NCBI GenBank assembly: GCA_001899635.1
Contig: MKVQ01000037.1
Location: 1 to 64,000, forward strand
Reading direction: 5' to 3'
From: Myxococcales bacterium 68-20
GTDB lineage: Bacteria; Myxococcota_A; Polyangia; Polyangiales; Polyangiaceae
DNA length: 64,000 bases
The translations under genes were made by a program, and so were the position numbers. Positions 47,491 to 57,230 of the stretch are shown piece after piece. The notes beneath the pieces were generated by a model. The model had not been told where the DNA came from, did no database searches, and worked only from the letters and a program-made list of their open reading frames with translations. Within the stretch, counting starts at the first letter, position 1. Each line of letters begins with the position of its first letter.

Positions 47491-49344
47491 TCACTTGACC
47501 GCTGCGAGCGGCGTCTCGACGAGCTTCCGCTGGGCCGATCCGCCCGGGTAGGCGTAGCTGGCGTACTGGTCCCAGCCCCACAACGTCGCGGTGAACGCCC
47601 CATCGCTCTTCATCCGCTGCAGGCCCTTCTGGCACACGCTCGTGCCGAAGGAATCACCGGAGCCGCCCCGGCGCGAGAGGTTGACTCGGACGAACTCGTA
47701 CTCGCCTCTCGTTCCGATGGGCCGGAATCCGGTGAGGTTGCCGGCGCACTCGAGCCAGACATCCTTGAACTGACCGCCCGTCTTCGCCCGCACGACGACG
47801 AGCGAGGTCTCCGCGTACGTCGGGTCGGCGAAGAAGCTGTATGAGCTCAGGTATTGGCGTGCCGGGACGATGTTCACGAACTCCGGATCACCCTGCCCTC
47901 CGTAGGACTTCGCATTGCGGAAGTCTCCGTTCCCTCCGGTCATGTGAGCGGAGAGGTAGATCGGATGCTCGACGTCCTGCGTGCGGACGACGAACGCATC
48001 CCCCGTCCCGGAGTGGAACGTCACGATCTCGCCGGCGTTCATCGTCGTAGGTGCCCCCGGAGGGACCGCGGGGTCGTAGTCGAGCCGCGTGCCGTCCCGC
48101 GCAGCGACGATGCGATAGGGCACCAGCTCGTGCTCGTTCCCTGCACGCGGCCGGTAGGCCACGCCGACGTATTCGGATCCCCACTGCTCGAACGCGGGAA
48201 TCTGCTGCCCGAGGATATCGCAGGCGGTGGCCGTCGTCGGAATGTCCGCACAAGAATGGCCACCGAAGACCGTCGTCGGCTTGGTCGAAGAGACGATGCT
48301 CCCCGAGAGCTCCTCGTCCTGGACGAATTGCAGGTGTTGGCCTCTGTCCAGCTTGTACGTTAGCGGATGCCGCGCCCGACCGCCTTTGAGGATGTCCCCG
48401 TTCTGGACGTCGCGCGTCGGAACGATCGTCACTTCGGTGTCGTCTTCGGAGGCGACGATCTGAGCGCCGGGGCCCCCTGAGGCCCCCGCTTCCCAGCCAT
48501 TGACGATCATGTGCTCCTTCGCCCACGTCGCGACGGGCAGCAGGAGAGTCGCCGAGGGAGCAAAGCCCGAGGCGCCACCGAACGGGTACATCGCGGTGAG
48601 CGCCACCGGGACGTTCGTCTTCATTCGGAACGACGAGCCGATCCCGGTGCCGCCCGTCAGGCGGTTGGCCAACATGCCAGGGACCACTCCGCTCGGACAA
48701 GCGACGTAGTTGATGGTCCACGAAGGTGTGCGAGGCATGTCCGGTGAGGCATCGGAGAGGAAGAGGATCACGCTCTCCCCGGGGGCGATCGGCCCGCTGT
48801 GCGGGAACAGCTCCTCGCTGCCCGGCTCCGTCCGAAACATCGCCTTCGAGATGTCGAGCGACTTACCTTCGAGCTCGATCACGACGTCGGCGGGTTGAAT
48901 CGACGTGTTGACGATGAACGTCGCATAACAAGACGGGGGCAAGGTCTTGGTGTACTGCGGCGGCTGGAAATAGAACTCGCAGCCGTTCGAGCTCCGATCC
49001 GCTGCCGCCGCCTCGCAGGGCGCCTGGCATGCCCCGGCCCCGCATGCGAGCGTGGGCCCGCACGTCTCGACGACCGCTCCCGAACAGGCCTCGATCACCG
49101 AGCGTCCGTCGAGCGAGCACTGGAGGCGGCAGTCCGGAGCGTCCACGGCGGCGGCAGCGTCGGAGGCGACCTCGAAGCTCCGCTCCTTGCCGTCGAACGC
49201 GTCCCTGTCATTCCCGCATGCGCCGATGCACGCGGCACAGACGGAGAGCCCGACGAGGGCGGCGACCAATCCGCCACCGAAATCCCACTTCGGCGAAGGA
49301 CCGGAGCTCGTCTGCGGGTGGCTCCTACGTCGCGAGCGATTCAT
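47491..49344 (-). CDS. IgGFc-binding-domain lipoprotein, last gene of the ECF operon
   Basis: A 617-residue protein starting at ATG 49344. The Arg-rich N-terminus leads to a hydrophobic segment and a Cys-containing lipobox-like end (CAACIGACGNDRD, about residues 36-48). A short Cys-rich region (CRLQCSLDG to GAGACQAPC) precedes a large IgGFc-binding-type domain (about 120-600) with FYFQPPQY, FGGASGFAPSATLLLPVATW, PTTVFGGHSCADIPT and the terminal WDQYASYAYPGG. In animals this domain occurs in mucin-like FCGBP; in myxobacteria its role is unknown but points to adhesion or a surface assembly. The ATG overlaps the RCC1 gene stop (ATGA). Confidence 0.85.
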   Translation of the reverse strand: MNRSRRRSHPQTSSGPSPKWDFGGGLVAALVGLSVCAACIGACGNDRDAFDGKERSFEVASDAAAAVDAPDCRLQCSLDGRSVIEACSGAVVETCGPTLACGAGACQAPCEAAAADRSSNGCEFYFQPPQYTKTLPPSCYATFIVNTSIQPADVVIELEGKSLDISKAMFRTEPGSEELFPHSGPIAPGESVILFLSDASPDMPRTPSWTINYVACPSGVVPGMLANRLTGGTGIGSSFRMKTNVPVALTAMYPFGGASGFAPSATLLLPVATWAKEHMIVNGWEAGASGGPGAQIVASEDDTEVTIVPTRDVQNGDILKGGRARHPLTYKLDRGQHLQFVQDEELSGSIVSSTKPTTVFGGHSCADIPTTATACDILGQQIPAFEQWGSEYVGVAYRPRAGNEHELVPYRIVAARDGTRLDYDPAVPPGAPTTMNAGEIVTFHSGTGDAFVVRTQDVEHPIYLSAHMTGGNGDFRNAKSYGGQGDPEFVNIVPARQYLSSYSFFADPTYAETSLVVVRAKTGGQFKDVWLECAGNLTGFRPIGTRGEYEFVRVNLSRRGGSGDSFGTSVCQKGLQRMKSDGAFTATLWGWDQYASYAYPGGSAQRKLVETPLAAVK

Positions 49345-50738
49345 GGCAGCACCACTTCCTGCGGTACCAGGCTCGGCACTCGCATCTTTCCATTGCCGAG
49401 TTGTCCGTAATAGTTCGCCCCCCAGCAAAACACTTTGCCGTTCGTCAGGAGCGCGCAGGTGGTGTCCGCCGTGGTCTTCACCTCGGCCGCGGGCTCGGGA
49501 AGGCCCTCGACCTTCACGGCTTCGAACGCGTACTCCTTCGTCCCGTCGCCAGCCTGGCCGCTCGCGTTGTTGCCCCAGCAGTACACGGAGCCGGACGCTC
49601 CCACGGCGCACCACCGCTGCGGTTGCACGATCGAGTCGCCGAGCTCGGCGACGAACATGCTGCGCGTCGTGGCAATCCGAACGATCGGCTCAGGGGCCAC
49701 GACCGGCGTCGGAAGGGCGCGAACGTAGATCGGAGAGGCGATCGCCTGGCCCCAGCAGTAGCCGATGCCAGCGACCGTCGCACAGGCCGTGTCGCTGGTC
49801 ATGTCGATCGACGAGATCCCGCCGAGGGCGATCGGCAAGGGCTGCGGATCGGGCGAGAGCGACGAGACGCGCGCGAGCGGAGGATTCGCTCCCCAGCTCA
49901 ACGTCACTCCGTCCTCACGGATCACGAAGACGGCCTTGCCGACGGCGATGTCGCGTATCGGCGCGCCGGACGGGACGCCGATCGCTCGCGGCGGGAGAAC
50001 CGAGAACGAAGCGGCGACGTCGAACGGCGCGACCACGCCGGAGGTGTTCCGGCCCCAGCAGAGAACGCCGTCGTCGACGACTGCGCACCCGACGTCGCTT
50101 CCCATCCCCACGCGCGTCGCCGGCGGCAGCGCGAGCTTCAGCGGCGTGCGCTCGGTGGTCGCCGCGCCGGCATCGTTACGGAGGAACGGCCCCGTCCCCC
50201 AGCACCACACGGCCCCGCTCGTGTCGAGCGCACACGTGTGATCGAGCTGGGCGACATCCGACAGCCCGACGACGCGCTCCGCGATGGCGCTGTCTGCCGT
50301 GCCGGCGTCACTACCACGCCCCAGCTGTCCGGCCGCGTTCGCGCCCCAGCACGCCACCGTGCCGTCGTCGAGAAGTACGCAGTACCCCTGGCTGCGATCG
50401 AAGTCGGTGGGCGCTCGCGTCGTCACGAGCGACTTGGCGCACGGAGCGGATGCACAGACGACCGGCAACGGACCTCCGTCGAACGGCGCCGCGTCACGCA
50501 CCGGCACGGGAGAAGCGTCGGCCGCTCCGCCATCGAGCACCGCGGCGTCCTCGGTCGTCGCCGACGCCTCCCACCCCGCGTCGCCCGGCTCGCTCTCTCT
50601 CGTGTCGTCGTCACTCGAGCAGCTCGCGACTGCACCGCCCGTCGCGCAGGCGGTCATGAGCAATACCGCGGCGGATGAATACCGCCCGATCGCTGAACTA
50701 CGATCAAGGAGTCGTCTTGTGGAGCGCATAGCGAACAC
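49341..50738 (-). CDS. RCC1-repeat lipoprotein
   Basis: Up to 465 residues. A hydrophobic N-terminus ends at a Cys (AVASCSSDDD), making a lipoprotein likely, followed by an Asp/Ser-rich linker and a seven-bladed RCC1-like propeller. Repeats of C-W-G-x-N-x-x-G-Q-x-G are visible: ACWGANAAGQLGRG, YCWGNNASGQAGDG and FCWGANYYGQLGNG. It should be an envelope-displayed protein-interaction scaffold. The stop overlaps the next ATG (ATGA). Its ATG at 50738 overlaps the upstream lipoprotein gene by 35 bp; a downstream start (about 50708, TTG) would remove most of the overlap, so the exact start is uncertain. Confidence 0.85.
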   Translation of the reverse strand: MFAMRSTRRLLDRSSAIGRYSSAAVLLMTACATGGAVASCSSDDDTRESEPGDAGWEASATTEDAAVLDGGAADASPVPVRDAAPFDGGPLPVVCASAPCAKSLVTTRAPTDFDRSQGYCVLLDDGTVACWGANAAGQLGRGSDAGTADSAIAERVVGLSDVAQLDHTCALDTSGAVWCWGTGPFLRNDAGAATTERTPLKLALPPATRVGMGSDVGCAVVDDGVLCWGRNTSGVVAPFDVAASFSVLPPRAIGVPSGAPIRDIAVGKAVFVIREDGVTLSWGANPPLARVSSLSPDPQPLPIALGGISSIDMTSDTACATVAGIGYCWGQAIASPIYVRALPTPVVAPEPIVRIATTRSMFVAELGDSIVQPQRWCAVGASGSVYCWGNNASGQAGDGTKEYAFEAVKVEGLPEPAAEVKTTADTTCALLTNGKVFCWGANYYGQLGNGKMRVPSLVPQEVVLP

Positions 50739-52011
50739 CGATCGCCCAGAGGTTGGTATTGGACGTGCCGCGAACTTGGTATATCGGCCGACCGAGCGGC
50801 GCCCCGGTCAGCGAGACCGTCGACACTTCGTACGCACCGCCGTCGAAGACGCCGGTGCCGCGAAGCACCACGCCCATTCCCCCCAGCCACAGGTTGCCTC
50901 CCTCGACCGAGAGCGAGTTCAACCCGGCGGAAGCGGCCGTCGTCGGGACTGGAGCGAGGGCAACCGAGTAGCTGTCCTCGTCCGCCGAGATCCTGACCAC
51001 GTCCCGAGCCCCCTTGAGAGCGACGAGCTCGTTCGGCGCCAGCGCTTGAATGTCCGTCAGCCAGCCGTCGATTCCTCCGATCAGCGGAACCCCCGCTCGC
51101 GCGGTGCACGGCATGTTGAAGCTCCCGATCGCGCCGTCCGCGACGCGCTTGTAACCGGCGGCGGTCTTGCGCACGAGGATCGCGCAGCCGGCGAAGGATC
51201 CGGCGCGTCCCCCGGAGAACCAGACGTCGTCGGCGCTCGTCCCGGCTGCGCCGAGGATGTGAAGCTGCTCCATCGGACCGCTGGTATCGGAGGCGACGTA
51301 CTCCGCGACCCACTCCGGCGCGCCGCCGTCGAGGCTGGTCCAGTGGAAGATCGTGTTCTTGAACCAAGCGTAGACGTCGTCGCGGCTCGTCCCCCACACC
51401 CCGAGCGCGGGGTAACGCGAGCCGTTGTTGAGCCTCCAGTACGACGGGTTTCCGTCGTCGGGATCGACGCTGGTGCTGCTGTTCGCGAGCCGGTGGCGTG
51501 TCCACGACCAAGCCGTCGCGGGCGGCACGGGGCGCGTTCCGTGAACGACGTAGCCGGGAGAGACGCCGTAGTAGAGCTCGTTCTCGTTCGGCATCCAGAG
51601 CTTGCCGACGAACCGGCCGAGCCCCGACTCGTTCTGGGTGCCGTCGTCGATGTACCTCCACTTGGCCTCGGCGTCGGTCCACTCGAGGACCTTCACACCG
51701 AGTGTCGGGCTCTCGGCGACCGACAAGGCACGTCCGGACAGCGGCCAGATGTCCTTCATCAGGAGATCCGGGTCGGGGAGCGACGTCACGCACCACCCCG
51801 CCTGGCTGCACTTCGGCCCGTCGACGACCGCCGCTTCCTCGGCCGCGTCGGCTTCGAGCGTGCCGCCGTCCGGGATCACGGTCTCGCCTCCGTCCGCATC
51901 GGGCCGCGGTGTCGTCTCGTCTTTGTCGTCGCCCGACGCCGCGCAAGCAACGGCCGCGAGGGCGAGGGCGAGGGCGACCGGTCCGAAAGCGAGGATGAAC
52001 GAAGCCCTCAT
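50704..52011 (-). CDS. Propeller-type lipoprotein of the ECF operon
   Basis: A 435-residue protein from ATG 52011. A lipoprotein signal (LALALAAVAC, Cys about 23) and an Asp/Glu-rich linker precede a beta-propeller-like domain with loosely spaced repeats such as GTSRDDVYAWF, GTSADDVWFSGGRAG and GGNLWLGGMGVVLRGTG. It is similar in plan to the upstream lipoprotein gene product but clearly diverged; the two could be ancient paralogues. Probably a surface-facing binding protein. ATGA overlap with the upstream gene, so translation is coupled. No catalytic motif seen. Confidence 0.78.
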   Translation of the reverse strand: MRASFILAFGPVALALALAAVACAASGDDKDETTPRPDADGGETVIPDGGTLEADAAEEAAVVDGPKCSQAGWCVTSLPDPDLLMKDIWPLSGRALSVAESPTLGVKVLEWTDAEAKWRYIDDGTQNESGLGRFVGKLWMPNENELYYGVSPGYVVHGTRPVPPATAWSWTRHRLANSSTSVDPDDGNPSYWRLNNGSRYPALGVWGTSRDDVYAWFKNTIFHWTSLDGGAPEWVAEYVASDTSGPMEQLHILGAAGTSADDVWFSGGRAGSFAGCAILVRKTAAGYKRVADGAIGSFNMPCTARAGVPLIGGIDGWLTDIQALAPNELVALKGARDVVRISADEDSYSVALAPVPTTAASAGLNSLSVEGGNLWLGGMGVVLRGTGVFDGGAYEVSTVSLTGAPLGRPIYQVRGTSNTNLWAIGVRYALHKTTP

Positions 52012-53210
52012 GGCTTTCCTCCAAGCGAGAGAATCACGCCTTTGCCACCGATCCAGACGTGGCCCGGTGCGGCCACCCAGACGGTCGTGAGGTTGGGCCG
52101 ATCGTTGCCGAGCCCGGCGACCTTCACGCGAGACCAGCTCTTGCCGTCGTAGTGAAGGACGACCCCCGCATCGCCGACGGCCCAAACATCGGAAGACGAC
52201 GAGCCCCAGACCGCGTTGAGATCCACGTTCGTCGGGACACCGGAGACGATCTCCCAGAGGGAGGGATCCCCGGTGTAGTGGCGAATCACTCCCGTTGCGC
52301 CGACGGACCACGCGTCGGTCGCGGACGCTGCCCAGACGCCGTTGAGCGCATTCCAGGTCTGGCTGTTGAACGCCTTGGCGCTCGGCGCGGCGCTCTCGGC
52401 GTTCGAGACGCGGATCGTCGTTCCCGCCGGCCCCACCGCCCAGAGCTCGTTGGCCGATTCCCCGTGGATCCCGTAGACCTGACCGCACCCGAGGGTCGAG
52501 CAGACGCTCGCCGGTATGCCGGTGCCGCCCTCGAACGCCGTCGGCGACGATTGCCGGATGCGCCAGAGGCCGCCGACCCCGAACGAGTTCGTGCCCTTCG
52601 TGGCGCACCAGAGCCACTCCGAGCCCGGCGCTGCCCATGCGGACAAGAGCAAGGCCGTCGTGGGGAGCTGCCCGGGGGGATACGTCGGGGACACGACCGT
52701 CCACCCACCATCGGAGGGTCCGGCGCCGCCATCGGGGATCTCGACACCGCGCGCGTAGACGTACTTGAGCACTCCGAGCGAGACCTCGGAGGAGTCGCGC
52801 AGCCAGAGGGCTCGCATCGTCTCGTAGCTGCCGGGATCCGAGACGGACCACGACGTACCGTCGAAGTGGGCGAGCGCACCGACTGCCCCGGCGGCCCAGA
52901 TGTCGCTCGCGGAACGGCCGCGAATGACGTTGATCGACGTCCGAGGGTCGAGCGCCCCGCCTGGCCTGTTCGGATCGAACGGCCCGTTCGGGCAGAGAAC
53001 GTCCGCCGTGCACGTCTCGGGGAAGTACTCGCAGTCGGCACACGGGCCCGCGTCGACCTCACCCGCCTCGGCGTCGAGCCCGCCGTCGTCTGGAGCTGCC
53101 GCGTCGGGGACGCGAGACTCGCGAGGAGGCTCCTCGTAGGAATCGAGGACCGCGCTCGCCGACGTGCACGCCGTGACCCCCAGAGCGAAGAGCAGCCAAC
53201 CCAATTTCAT
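52008..53210 (-). CDS. W-x-V-G-repeat beta-propeller lipoprotein of the ECF operon
   Basis: A 400-residue protein from ATG 53210. The signal ends at a lipobox VTAC (Cys about 15), then an Asp/Ala/Glu-rich linker with several Cys. The domain has clear propeller repeats built on D-x-W-x-x-G-x-x-G-x-x-x-H-Y-D-G-x-S-W: SDIWAAGAVGALAHFDG, NELWAVGPAGT, TDAWSVGATGVIRHYTG, SDVWAVGDAGVVLHYDG and HVWIGGKGVI. Such repeats occur in secreted myxobacterial proteins of unknown role. Both ends overlap neighbours by ATGA, so it is locked into the operon. The upstream in-frame extension (to 53315) is rejected. Confidence 0.82.
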   Translation of the reverse strand: MKLGWLLFALGVTACTSASAVLDSYEEPPRESRVPDAAAPDDGGLDAEAGEVDAGPCADCEYFPETCTADVLCPNGPFDPNRPGGALDPRTSINVIRGRSASDIWAAGAVGALAHFDGTSWSVSDPGSYETMRALWLRDSSEVSLGVLKYVYARGVEIPDGGAGPSDGGWTVVSPTYPPGQLPTTALLLSAWAAPGSEWLWCATKGTNSFGVGGLWRIRQSSPTAFEGGTGIPASVCSTLGCGQVYGIHGESANELWAVGPAGTTIRVSNAESAAPSAKAFNSQTWNALNGVWAASATDAWSVGATGVIRHYTGDPSLWEIVSGVPTNVDLNAVWGSSSSDVWAVGDAGVVLHYDGKSWSRVKVAGLGNDRPNLTTVWVAAPGHVWIGGKGVILSLGGKP

Positions 53211-54436
53211 CGCGCGACCTCTCCCGCGTCTCGGCCCTCGGTGGCGCACGGCTCGACCACACACTCGCCGCCGACGCACGCCTGCCCCGCAATCGCATCG
53301 CAGACTCGGCCGCACGCCCCGCAGTTCGCGGGATCGCTATTGGCGTTCACCTCACAGCCGTCGGCCTCGTTCCCGTTGCAATCGGCCCAGCCCTTGATGC
53401 ACTCCAGGTTGCACATGCCGTACGAGCAGATGCCGACGCTGTTCGGTCCAACGCTCGACCGGCACGGGATACCGCACGCGCCGCAGTTCTTCCGATCCGT
53501 GGCGAGGTCCGCACACTCGCCCTTGCAGACGTTGCCGACGCATTGGGTGGCGCAGAACGTCTTGCCCGCGGGGCACATGCACTGGGGAGTACCGCTGAGG
53601 TCGAGCCTGCACTCCTGCCCCGCCCCGCACGCGTTCCCGCAGCCGCCGCAGTGCTCGGCCGAGAGGAAGTCGGCTTCGCACCCATTGAGCTTGTCGCCGT
53701 CGCAATTACCGAAATTCGGGCGACACTTCAGCGCCCCACACTGGCCGTCGAAGCACCCGTAATAGGTATTCGCGTATTGAACTCCCCCGTCACCGTTGGG
53801 ATCACAGACCCTGCCGCAGGCGCCGCAATTGGAGTCATCGCTCCTCGCCTTGACGCAACGGAGCGTGGGCGTCGTGCAGAGCAAGTCGTCACCCTTGCAG
53901 CCGCATCCGACGTCGCCGACGATCGGCGAGCGCTGCACGCACGGCTTGGCCTGGTCCGCACACTTGTTCCCGCACGCGCCGCAGTGCTCGTTGTTCGTCG
54001 GGGTGGTCTCACAACCGTTGTCGGGGACGCCATCGCAGTCGAGCGACACGGGCTGGGACTTGCACTGCAGCATGCAGCGGCCCTCGACGCACTCGTAGTA
54101 CTCGCGACTGGTCTCCGACGGACATACGGCGCCGCATGCGCCGCAGTTGTTCCGATCCGTCAGCAAGTCCACGTCGCACAGGAACGGCGAGCTCGGGCAG
54201 GTCGTGCGTCCCGCCGGGCACTTGTTCGAGGGACAGTACGCGGTGAGCTCGACTGCGGCCTCGGGGGCCTCGGCGTCGGGAGGAGCGACGAAGGTCGGCG
54301 TGTCGTCGTCGCCGTCGGCCGAGAGCGAGTCACCGAGCACTCGCTCGCCGCGTGAACAGCTCGCGGCGCCCGCGGTGAGCACGACGATCCCGAGGAGCAA
54401 TCGTCCGAAGACACGGTGCGGCTTCGTCGACCTCAT
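53207..54436 (-). CDS. Cys-rich lipoprotein with N-C-G-A-C-G repeats
   Basis: A 409-residue protein from ATG 54436. A lipoprotein signal (GAASC, Cys about 27) is followed by an Asp/Pro-rich linker and a domain of at least six short Cys-rich repeats with the pattern N-C-G-A-C-G-x2-C (NNCGACGAVC, EHCGACGNKC, SNCGACGRVC, EHCGGCGNAC, KNCGACGIPC, ANCGACGRVC), each with C-x-x-G-x-C partners. Many disulfides are expected, so it functions outside the cytosol, probably as a rigid stalk or adhesion module. ATGA overlaps tie it to genes on both sides. Confidence 0.85.
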   Translation of the reverse strand: MRSTKPHRVFGRLLLGIVVLTAGAASCSRGERVLGDSLSADGDDDTPTFVAPPDAEAPEAAVELTAYCPSNKCPAGRTTCPSSPFLCDVDLLTDRNNCGACGAVCPSETSREYYECVEGRCMLQCKSQPVSLDCDGVPDNGCETTPTNNEHCGACGNKCADQAKPCVQRSPIVGDVGCGCKGDDLLCTTPTLRCVKARSDDSNCGACGRVCDPNGDGGVQYANTYYGCFDGQCGALKCRPNFGNCDGDKLNGCEADFLSAEHCGGCGNACGAGQECRLDLSGTPQCMCPAGKTFCATQCVGNVCKGECADLATDRKNCGACGIPCRSSVGPNSVGICSYGMCNLECIKGWADCNGNEADGCEVNANSDPANCGACGRVCDAIAGQACVGGECVVEPCATEGRDAGEVAR

Positions 54437-55206
54437 TGCGAGCTCTCCTGCGACTCGAGCGAACGAACGATGCCCTCGACCCGCCGGCTGTAGAGCTCGG
54501 CAGGATGGGTGCTCAAGAAGGCTTCACCCAGCCTCCGTGCCTCGGCGACGTCGCCGGCCTTGGCGAGCGCGGAGACGCGCAACACCGTCGCCTCCTCCCT
54601 GAACGCCGGCTCCGGGTAACGTCGCTTGTACTCGTCGAGCACCGTGAGAGCGGCGCGAGGATCACCTTGGCGGAGCCGCGTCCGCGCGGAGTCGATGAAC
54701 GCCATCTGCTCGCCGAGCGAGACCTCGTCCAAGACAGGCTTCTTCGCGACGGAGCGCGCGGGCGGGGCCGCCGAGGGCACAGCCACCGGAACCGAGGGCA
54801 AGTCGTCGGCGGTGACGACGGGGACGGCCGCGACCGTGCCGGCAGGCGACGGCGCCGGCGGCGCCTCGAGACGATCCGCCCCGTCGCCCACGCTCACCGG
54901 GACGGCTTTCGACACGTCATGGGGCTCGCCCACCGGGCCCGACGAACGCGATGAGACGTAGTCGAAGGCACCGACCGATGCAGCCGCGAGCGCGAGCACG
55001 CCGAGCCCCTTCGCCAGCGGGAGCTTCCATCCCGGCATTGCGGCGGGAGGCGCTGCCTCGGTCGGGGCAATTGCGGTGCCCCACTGAACGAGCGCCCGAA
55101 ACTTCTCTTCGGGCATCTCGTCGGCGGCGGCAGACGCGAGGAGGCGCTGTTCGATCTCCGTGCCGCCTGCGTCTCGAAGACGGGTCATGTGTTTCTCGGA
55201 GCTCAT
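54433..55206 (-). CDS. Single-pass membrane protein, putative anti-sigma factor with TPR-like periplasmic domain
   Basis: A 257-residue protein from ATG 55206. An N-terminal cytosolic part (about 1-63), one transmembrane helix (about 65-85, LAKGLGVLALAAASVGAF), a Pro/Ala/Ser-rich periplasmic linker and a TPR-like C-terminal domain (about 175-250: FIDSARTRLRQGDPRAALTVLDEYKRRYPEPAFREE). It follows the ECF gene by an ATGA overlap, the usual place of an anti-sigma factor, and has the right topology. The His-x3-C-x2-C zinc motif of classical ZAS anti-sigma factors is absent. Assignment as anti-sigma is inference from position and topology. Confidence 0.7.
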   Translation of the reverse strand: MSSEKHMTRLRDAGGTEIEQRLLASAAADEMPEEKFRALVQWGTAIAPTEAAPPAAMPGWKLPLAKGLGVLALAAASVGAFDYVSSRSSGPVGEPHDVSKAVPVSVGDGADRLEAPPAPSPAGTVAAVPVVTADDLPSVPVAVPSAAPPARSVAKKPVLDEVSLGEQMAFIDSARTRLRQGDPRAALTVLDEYKRRYPEPAFREEATVLRVSALAKAGDVAEARRLGEAFLSTHPAELYSRRVEGIVRSLESQESSQ

Positions 55207-55820
55207 GTCTGTTTCACCTTGCGTGCGGCCAGCTGACGGAATTCTTCGCGCGCGCGGCGCAGTCGCGATGCTGCGGTTCCAACCGGGATGCCCACGTATT
55301 CGGCGATCCGAGGCGCGCTCAGCTCCTCGAACTCGTGGAGGACGAAGACCACGCGGAGGTCGTCGGGCATCTCGTCGAGGATCTCGTCGAGCAGCCGGCG
55401 CGCGTAGCGGCGGTCCAGGAGATCGTCCGCGGTCGGAGCGGGATCCGAGAGCGCCTGCACGTCGTCGTCCTCGAGCGGCCGCTCCGGCTTGCGGGCCAGA
55501 CGCCGCCGCGCGTGAGCGCTGACGTTCAGCGCGGTGCGGAAGAGGAAGGCCTTCTCCGCGCCGGGCTGGATCTCGTGGAGACGTTCGGCAGCGACGAGGA
55601 AGACCTGCTGGATCGCGTCGTCGAGCGAGGCCTCGGGCACCCCCAACCTGCGGAGGGACTGCCAGAGGAAGCGCCCGTGCGCCTCCACGAGCGCACGGAA
55701 CCTCATCGTGTCAGCCGAGCGCCGAGCGCCGAGAGGCCGCGGCTCGTCCGCTGCTGCGGGCAGCGCAAGGACCGGTAACAGCGAGCTTTCACCGCGCACC
55801 CTGCAGAATTCCCGGGGCAC
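55203..55820 (-). CDS. ECF RNA polymerase sigma factor heading the surface operon
   Basis: A protein of 205 residues from ATG 55820, or 167 from ATG 55706, where sigma region 2 begins (RFRALVEAHGRFLWQSLRRLGV). Region 2 continues with SLDDAIQQVFLVAAERLHEI and the -10-binding helix; region 4 is at the C-terminus (MPDDLRVVFVLHEFEELSAPRIAEYVGIPVGT...SRLRRARE). No regions 1 or 3, as expected for the ECF group. It probably drives its own operon and possibly the upstream outer-membrane-type gene. Its stop overlaps the next ATG (ATGA). The longer start leaves only 18 bp to the upstream gene. Confidence 0.9.
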   Translation of the reverse strand: MPREFCRVRGESSLLPVLALPAAADEPRPLGARRSADTMRFRALVEAHGRFLWQSLRRLGVPEASLDDAIQQVFLVAAERLHEIQPGAEKAFLFRTALNVSAHARRRLARKPERPLEDDDVQALSDPAPTADDLLDRRYARRLLDEILDEMPDDLRVVFVLHEFEELSAPRIAEYVGIPVGTAASRLRRAREEFRQLAARKVKQT

Positions 55821-55838
55821 CTGCCATCGATCACCGAT

Positions 55839-56855
55839 TCAGTCGAAATGCAGCACGGGGCCGATCCCGACCCACGTGACGACGGCCGGCGTGGCGAACA
55901 TGAGGACGTTGGGGCGGAGCACCAGCTCGTCGCTCACGAAGGGCGCGAGGCCCCCTGCTTCGGCTTCGATTCCGAGCGTGCGCGACAAATTCCAGGCGGC
56001 GTTCACCGCGAGGCCCGCGCCCGCCCACGGCGCCGAATAGCTGAGCGGATTGCGCGCCTGAGTCGCCGATGCCGTGAACGCGCCGCCGTCGACCAGCCCG
56101 CAGAGAGAAAGCGCGAGCGTTGTGACGGGCCGCAGACACAGCTGAGCTCGCAAGAGGAGCCACGTGAGCTCCGCCTCGCCCACGCTGCGCGCCACCGTGC
56201 GTCGCCAGGTGGCCGCTTCGAGGCGGAACGAGAGTCGCCCCGCCAGATTCGGCGGGCGGACCTCGGAGTAGATGCCGACTCCGGTCGCGAGACCATCGAC
56301 GTGCGCGAGGATGCCACGAGCGCCCATCGAGGTCTCGATGCGCGGCCGCTCGTCTCGACGGAGCGGAGGCCGCGGCCGCCGACGCCGCGGCGGGGCTGTG
56401 CTCGGGTAGCTCTCGGGCTCGGGGACCAGCGAGGGCGCGGTCGAGCGCTCGTCGTCGGGCTCCGGCGCGCTGCTCTCGAGCGCTCCCTCTTCCAAGGCCA
56501 GGACGAGGGCAAGTGCGAGCGCGGACGTCACCTCCTCGCACGTTCGCCCGACGACGCCGCGGGGTGGCAGCATCTCGCCGCGCGACGTGCGCAACGTGAG
56601 GTCGCCCCTCACCACCCCGTCCACCTTCCACGCGCGAACGAAGAGCACCGGCGTCTCGTCCGTCGCCGGACCGAGAGAGAGCTCGCTCGTGCGCGACGTC
56701 ACCTCGGCCCAGAACTTCTCCTCGTCGGTGCACGAAGCCGGGGCCTCGACCACGACATGGACTGGAATGGTCGGGCTCTCCGCGCGCGCCTCGGCAGCGA
56801 ACATCACCGAGGCGACGACGAGCCCGGCCGGCGCCACGATGCGTCCGAGCGCCAT
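55839..56855 (-). CDS. Secreted/outer-membrane-type protein upstream of the ECF gene
   Basis: A 338-residue protein from ATG 56855, chosen because it starts a clean signal peptide (MALGRIVAPAGLVVASVM, cleaved after AEARA); in-frame ATGs at 56900, 56906 and 56933 are alternatives. A short N-terminal domain (VHVVVEAPASCTDEEKFWAEV) and a Pro/Arg/Glu-rich linker (about 120-175) are followed by beta-strand-like alternating segments (LAGRLSFRLEAATW, GLAVNAAWNLSRTLGIEAEAGGL) suggesting an outer-membrane barrel-like end with a terminal aromatic residue region. It lies 18 bp upstream of the ECF gene in the same direction and may be co-transcribed with the operon. Family unknown. Confidence 0.65.
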   Translation of the reverse strand: MALGRIVAPAGLVVASVMFAAEARAESPTIPVHVVVEAPASCTDEEKFWAEVTSRTSELSLGPATDETPVLFVRAWKVDGVVRGDLTLRTSRGEMLPPRGVVGRTCEEVTSALALALVLALEEGALESSAPEPDDERSTAPSLVPEPESYPSTAPPRRRRPRPPLRRDERPRIETSMGARGILAHVDGLATGVGIYSEVRPPNLAGRLSFRLEAATWRRTVARSVGEAELTWLLLRAQLCLRPVTTLALSLCGLVDGGAFTASATQARNPLSYSAPWAGAGLAVNAAWNLSRTLGIEAEAGGLAPFVSDELVLRPNVLMFATPAVVTWVGIGPVLHFD

Positions 56856-56906
56856 GCGCACGAGCGTCGGGAAAGACGGTGCGCGGGCGCTCGGGATCAT
56901 GCACAT

Positions 56907-57230
56907 CGGACGTTGGTTGCGATACCGCCGCACGCAGCGAAGGCACGACGAGGCGGCAGCGGCAGCTCCCGATAGGGACGGAGAACCTCGTGCGCTCGAG
57001 AGGCAGCGACGTCTCCTCGGAGAGGATGAAGCCTGGGTATGGGAGACTCAGGATAGCGGAAGCGAGCGGCAACTTCATCGTGCCGAGGCGCTCGACGCCG
57101 GGCACCGCCCGATGCTCGTCCGAAGCGGCAAGCTCTTCCGCACCTGCTCGACCGGGGAGGCCTCGGCGATCACGTCGCCCGCGTCACTGCCGATGCGCTT
57201 CCCCTGACCGCGGGCAGCCCGCGATGACGC
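56907..57230. other. Gene-free interval
   Basis: A 324-bp stretch between the outer-membrane-type gene and the ASCH-domain gene. Open frames here have only compositional bias; I see no signal, motif, hairpin or repeat that stands out. The promoter of the ECF-linked genes may lie near 56907-57000, but no convincing elements are visible. Confidence 0.5.

Follow-up and report, generated by a model that had tools for sequence, protein, structure and literature searches.

An eight-gene surface operon of a Labilithrix-related myxobacterium belongs to a large paralogous family whose regulator and surface halves evolve separately

The systems described so far that stand closest to the operon reported here come from very different settings. 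In FecA-FecR-FecI signalling, an outer-membrane barrel, a single-pass membrane regulator and an extracytoplasmic function (ECF) sigma factor are encoded together; one Bacteroidota genome can hold a large paralogous set of SusC/SusD polysaccharide utilisation loci, surface lipoprotein operons under sigma/anti-sigma control; and at Borrelia vlsE and the trypanosome VSG expression sites the coding sequence of a surface protein is exchanged behind a fixed promoter/signal-peptide region. Here we describe an operon that resembles each of these in part. It lies in a 64,000-nt stretch of Myxococcales bacterium 68-20 (contig MKVQ01000037.1, positions 1 to 64,000; hereafter the window, whose numbering all coordinates follow), with all genes on the minus strand in the order omp, ecf, tpr, cys, prA, prB, rcc, igg. 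As in FecA-FecR-FecI, the barrel, membrane protein and ECF sigma factor are encoded together, here co-evolving, and the sigma factor presumably drives the neighbouring surface operon. We found no published description of this eight-gene module in the literature searched. We consider it probable that it represents an amplified family of at least 100 cell-surface signalling units of eight genes each, in which the sensor and payload cassettes are exchangeable.

The window operon is one of at least 100 related copies in its own genome, which belongs to a Labilithrix-related myxobacterium (11.9 Mb in 52 contigs, completeness 98.4, contamination 4.2). Copy counts are lower bounds, as the searches scored a limited number of candidates: the tpr protein has at least 128 matches, the ecf protein at least 150, and at least 122 pairs of ECF and tetratricopeptide repeat (TPR) genes are adjacent on one strand. 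At the loci examined—120 of the 122 pairs plus 20 further places—the same genes recur at near-constant lengths, and profiles built from complete copies label at least 117 IgGFc, 122 prA and 125 cys genes and at least 101 complete five-gene surface blocks. Module genes amount to 1.08 Mb, or 9.1% of the genome. Some copies tallied as lacking an ECF gene do have one, missed by the gene caller. One surface cassette (L201, C42:274705 onward) stands alone: in the 4 kb upstream of it, neither omp nor ecf nor tpr can be recognised. Tandem duplication was considered as the source of the similarity and rejected, neighbouring modules being no more alike than distant ones. The copies could also be ordinary ECF-controlled lipoprotein operons, assembled independently each time from domains that are indeed common in Myxococcota; however, gene order and gene lengths are the same in all copies and each slot holds homologous genes throughout, which already refutes this idea, and the other genera examined yielded no full-length prA or cys family. 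We give it next to no credence.

The module consists of two evolutionary units—omp, ecf, tpr and the cys signal peptide on one side, mature cys, prA, prB, rcc and igg on the other—that have been re-paired repeatedly, almost at random. When pairwise identities were correlated slot by slot over 78 complete copies, coefficients reached 0.68-0.77 among omp, ecf and tpr and 0.85-0.95 among cys, prA, prB, rcc and igg; between the halves they were 0.10-0.17, close to the highest values that permutation gave. Two slots of the same half have the same nearest neighbour in 44-65% of cases, two slots of different halves in 3-8%, and the closest surface genes (78% amino acid identity) stand behind unrelated regulators. 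Among 52 pairs with a surface identity of at least 0.60, five have related regulators, with 2.1 expected by chance. In the largest surface clade (40 copies) the regulator-surface correlation is -0.03 (p=0.68), and of 37 splits none is common to the regulator and surface trees, compared with 26 for two parts of the surface half and 16 for ecf and tpr. Fitted to the regulator alignment, the surface tree is rejected (deltaL 3667; Shimodaira-Hasegawa p=0; approximately unbiased [AU] p=0.029, from only 2000 replicates), whereas the same test within the surface half gives no rejection of one part's tree by the other part (deltaL 40, AU p=0.07).

These results bear on the first-pass annotation, which had described seven genes and read their strict coupling as the fixed stoichiometry of a multi-protein complex. 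The tight co-evolution of the five lipoprotein genes is what one would expect of one complex or co-functional set, and that part of the idea survives; however, ECF-TPR pairs combine freely with different lipoprotein cassettes, and the boundary between the halves falls within cys, the third of the seven genes, so the reading of the whole operon as one fixed system is not supported. The operon unit is in fact eight genes, with omp just upstream as the eighth; omp and the paralogous copies had both been missed.

In the window the boundary lies at 54272..54316 on the minus strand, cys codons ~41-55, around the linker PTFVAPPDA, where co-variation switches from the regulators to the surface genes. 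In sister surface cassettes nucleotide homology opens inside cys and closes at the igg stop codon: over 47 sister pairs it starts at a median of 160 bp into cys (interquartile range 136-192) and ends at a median of -8 bp from the igg stop. In two listed pairs, both involving M72, the homology runs on to include one more gene downstream, and in the sister pair M31/M72 (L129 and L093) it likewise passes the igg stop. A windowed scan of co-variation along cys places the switch between residues 41 and 60; codons 1-45 track the regulators and codons 51 onward the surface genes. Over residues 1-45, identity is 0.47 among the closest regulator pairs and 0.27 among the closest surface pairs, against a background of 0.24. 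The junction is marked by a conserved peptide, PxFxxxPDA, whose Asp is invariant and which follows the lipobox Cys by 15-30 residues; this linker could double as a surface-export signal.

Draft genomes and fast-evolving signal peptides invite the objection that assembly chimeras, saturation or misaligned signal peptides mimic re-pairing, but we regard this as very improbable. The junction is only ~35-55% identical between copies, so that assemblers could not readily join it by shared k-mers, and the regulators correlate well with one another, so their signal is not saturated. Nor is the switch in cys merely fast signal-peptide evolution, because in the same closest surface pairs the signal peptides of prA, prB, rcc and igg remain 0.55-0.60 identical while that of cys is at 0.27.

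Relatives extend this picture beyond one genome. First-look candidate IgGFc matches number 144 in the own genome, 47 in G003, 22 in G033, 17 in G006 and at most 13 in other relatives; in other genera, the IgGFc genes that were sampled do not form part of the module. The full-length cys family was found in eight genomes of the own genus and in none of 26 other relatives, and full-length prA in five genomes of the genus, with other class members searched giving partial blade matches only, among the matches listed. The unit is thus conserved jointly elsewhere, as the first-pass annotation had proposed to check, but within the genus only. Full-length surface cassettes appear confined to the own genus on these searches, and the regulator family is widespread in the order. 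Since the tpr family is order-wide and in the own genome also leads unrelated downstream genes, while cys and prA were found at full length in the genus alone, a common regulator seems to have gained a genus-specific payload. Several ECF-TPR pairs of the same family (L062, L071, L082, L103, L130, L133 and L139) have alternative, mostly unassignable payload genes.

Between species, both intact and re-paired modules are seen. Intact orthologues of single own-genome modules occur in G003 and G006 (L169, L204, L208, L218, L220 and L222). In the mosaic L211, the regulators match module 181 up to cys+133, and from cys+157 the surface cassette is 91.7% identical to that of module 94; its synonymous divergence from module 94 (dS 0.14-0.24) is about that of an intact orthologue pair, L220-141 (dS 0.17-0.21). 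A second mosaic, L162, keeps the syntenic regulators of module 130 and a remnant of the upstream neighbour but carries a cassette of the module 129 type. Directly upstream of the swapped module lies this 580-bp igg 3'-end remnant (L162:1593-2173), which matches module 129, the tandem neighbour in the own genome, and is possibly a scar of the exchange.

The precise ends of the surface cassette, its dispersal to unrelated loci and patchy presence in the genus, and the leading of other payloads by the same regulator family would also suit a selfish or mobile unit that inserts behind resident ECF-TPR pairs to little host benefit. This strikes us as distinctly improbable: none of the eight module genes is a mobility gene (no systematic scan for mobile elements was made in the flanks), the junction has no conserved site motif, some whole modules are kept between species at 86-91% nucleotide identity, and all eight genes are under purifying selection, with between-species medians of 0.20-0.45 for the ratio of nonsynonymous to synonymous substitution (dN/dS), which argues that the copies are maintained. 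The same ratios, with no diversifying selection seen at the gene level, weigh against a reservoir for immune or phage escape, in which many surface coats exist, one or few are expressed at once and swapping amounts to antigenic variation. The large paralogous surface repertoire, the 5' junction just behind a signal peptide and the precise 3' end follow a logic resembling that of vlsE or VSG expression sites; however, nearly every cassette has its own regulator (only L201 clearly has none), no archive of silent cassettes is seen, and surface copies are far apart (nearest neighbours at ~55-67% amino acid identity), which implies slow exchange. We hold antigenic variation to be unlikely and, with silent cassettes not seen, reject it as the principal explanation.

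The anatomy of the regulator half is consistent with a family of signalling units. The omp gene (55839..56933, minus strand, in the window) sits directly upstream of ecf in most copies, with a product of ~340 amino acids, and matches no Pfam or NCBIfam family. It encodes a secreted protein with a periplasmic alpha/beta domain, a Pro-rich linker and a predicted 8-stranded outer-membrane beta-barrel, modelled by AlphaFold2 with a per-residue confidence score (pLDDT) mostly above 90 and matched by Foldseek to Ail/OmpX/OmpA barrels (E down to 5e-7). A profile match to monocarboxylate transporter 8 is most likely an artefact of Pro-rich low complexity and was set aside. The barrel co-evolves with ecf and tpr (r=0.72-0.77), as a receptor in a sensor chain would. 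The ecf gene (55203..55706, minus strand) more likely starts at ATG 55706, with GTG 55820 as the alternative; its product is an ECF sigma factor by class, with sigma70 regions 2 and 4 and without region 3 (Pfam Sigma70_r4_2 2e-14, r2 1e-6; TIGR02937 72 bits against a cutoff of 42.9). The tpr gene (54433..55206, minus strand; Pfam TPR_14 above cutoff) encodes a three-helix cytoplasmic N-terminus, one transmembrane helix and a periplasmic TPR domain; in the AlphaFold2 model the transmembrane region is of low confidence and the TPR domain has a pLDDT of ~98, and a fold search with the model gave generic TPR matches only, none with E below 0.001. This topology and the position directly after ecf are as in membrane anti-sigma factors, which the tpr protein probably is; in that role its cytoplasmic helices would bind the sigma factor. 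The likeliest site of a sigma-dependent promoter is the omp-ecf intergenic region (55707..55838, minus strand), which in the window holds GTGATC at 55829-55834. A/T runs of six or more occur in 27 of 102 omp-ecf gaps versus 0-5 in each other gap type, and this clustering suggests a promoter there with read-through into the surface genes; GTGATC stands upstream of ecf, near the omp stop, in 33 copies (9.5 expected).

The surface half encodes five lipoproteins: lipoboxes are carried by 65-91% of the proteins in each payload family and by 1-3% of those in the other three families, in line with the ECF-led lipoprotein set first proposed. The cys gene (53207..54436) encodes a Cys-rich lipoprotein with Stig1-like repeats, its first ~45 codons belonging to the regulator half; prA (52008..53210) a lipoprotein with a putative Ycf48-like beta-propeller (profile match to the Ycf48 structures 2xbg/5ojr, E=3e-6, positions 103-389); prB (50704..52011) a probable divergent beta-propeller lipoprotein; rcc (49341..50729, start uncertain) an RCC1-repeat propeller lipoprotein (Pfam RCC1_2 8e-26); and igg (47491..49344) an IgGFc_binding lipoprotein whose stop codon closes the exchangeable cassette on its 3' side, all on the minus strand. 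The families named in the first-pass annotation are borne out by Pfam for the sigma-70 r2/r4, TPR, Stig1-like Cys-rich, RCC1 and IgGFc_binding proteins (the last at E=1e-103). Its two W-x-V-G propellers match no Pfam family; the Ycf48 profile match suggests the fold for prA, while that for prB is weak (E=0.016). The MXAN_6577-like Cys-rich (NF041328) and PF17517 proteins of Myxococcota have the same domains as the module: igg passes PF17517 (347 bits against a cutoff of 25.6, profile positions 1-297), and cys, at 76.2 bits and below the cutoff of 100, is not a member of NF041328. Directly 3' of igg, an extra RCC1-type gene (~420-460 amino acids) is found at L115, L129, L140, L159 and L143.

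All seven genes first described are present on the minus strand in the order given, and the ATGA overlaps are there at 55203-55206, 54433-54436, 53207-53210, 52008-52011 and 49341-49344. At the sixth junction, prB to rcc, the reported overlap of up to 35 bp depends on an ambiguous rcc start: it is 26-35 bp from ATG 50729 or GTG 50738, and gives way to a 46-bp gap from ATG 50657. Across paralogous copies, by the first operon calls, a -4 overlap occurs at 245 of 391 co-directional junctions (63%) versus 17% of neighbouring non-module junctions, so the coupling is not chance. It is strong at ecf-tpr (86/112), cys-prA (101/120), prA-prB (101/114) and rcc-igg (67/112), and weak at tpr-cys (29/101) and prB-rcc (26/112).

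The mechanism we propose would run as follows. The omp barrel and the tpr anti-sigma factor, forming by their anatomy a sensor chain to the ECF sigma factor, would keep it inactive for as long as no signal arrives from outside. Once released, the sigma factor would start transcription of its own operon at a promoter 5' of ecf, with read-through into the surface genes, whose five lipoproteins probably cooperate to bind an extracellular target. Recombination in the low-complexity linker that follows the cys signal peptide would join regulator cassettes to different surface cassettes, re-pairing sensing and payload over evolution; ectopic crossing-over in this Ala/Asp/Gly/Pro-rich linker is the simplest route. 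No promoter is needed inside the surface cassette, so any payload fused in frame behind the signal peptide of cys would come under a new sensor. We are evenly divided on the further claim that this amounts to combinatorial control, in which recombination at a standard in-frame junction, located within the first payload gene, re-pairs ~100 sensor with ~100 surface-complex cassettes of one genome, and single exchanges give new signal-to-surface couplings.

Several observations weigh against an exchangeable family of signalling units. A smaller surface clade keeps a weak regulator-surface association (r=0.23, p=0.005). The tpr protein matches no known anti-sigma domain, only TPR-type families, and the promoter signal is weak: a gapped-word search for a common sigma promoter motif returned no single motif, only the A/T-rich tract and the partial GTGATC enrichment. 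At the cys junction a search for a repeat or conserved DNA site found the peptide PxFxxxPDA only, and recombinases were not searched genome-wide. In L164, L171 and L203 the regulator and surface halves are divergent, so a single transcript is not universal; the cys-prA-prB-rcc-igg block at these loci can be inverted relative to its own regulators. The genomes are drafts, and the genes were called with a home-made caller based on codon usage, which reproduces the window operon.

Devoting ~9% of a genome to more than 100 copies of one eight-gene signalling and surface module is extreme, and it raises a concrete question: what do repertoires of this size allow these myxobacteria to recognise? That re-pairing takes place at a single position inside a gene makes the family a natural experiment on the rewiring of signalling specificity and output—with separate regulator and payload histories, sigma-promoter and sigma-anti-sigma specificity could be read from 100 natural replicates, and the modular junction is predicted to be usable for experimental payload swaps. 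The module is thus an unusual, testable case of mix-and-match gene control.

Set beside the known systems, the module differs from each. Unlike vlsE and the VSG expression sites, each payload has its own sigma factor, the exchanged unit is a multi-gene cassette, there is no silent archive, and exchange is slow. Unlike the SusC/SusD loci, its eight genes include no SusC/SusD, TonB or glycan enzymes, the payload architecture is identical in every copy, and the halves reassort at a fixed intragenic junction. In contrast to FecA-FecR-FecI, the barrel is small, 8-stranded and OmpX/Ail-like rather than a TonB-dependent 22-strand receptor with a signalling domain; the membrane protein carries TPRs, with TPR-type families found and no FecR domain; and the payload is five lipoproteins, in more than 100 copies with exchangeable payloads. 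The absence of a TonB-dependent receptor and FecR domain places the module outside FecA-FecR-FecI. By analogy, it may work like FecA-FecR-FecI signalling or the sigma-controlled Sus loci, as a member of neither.

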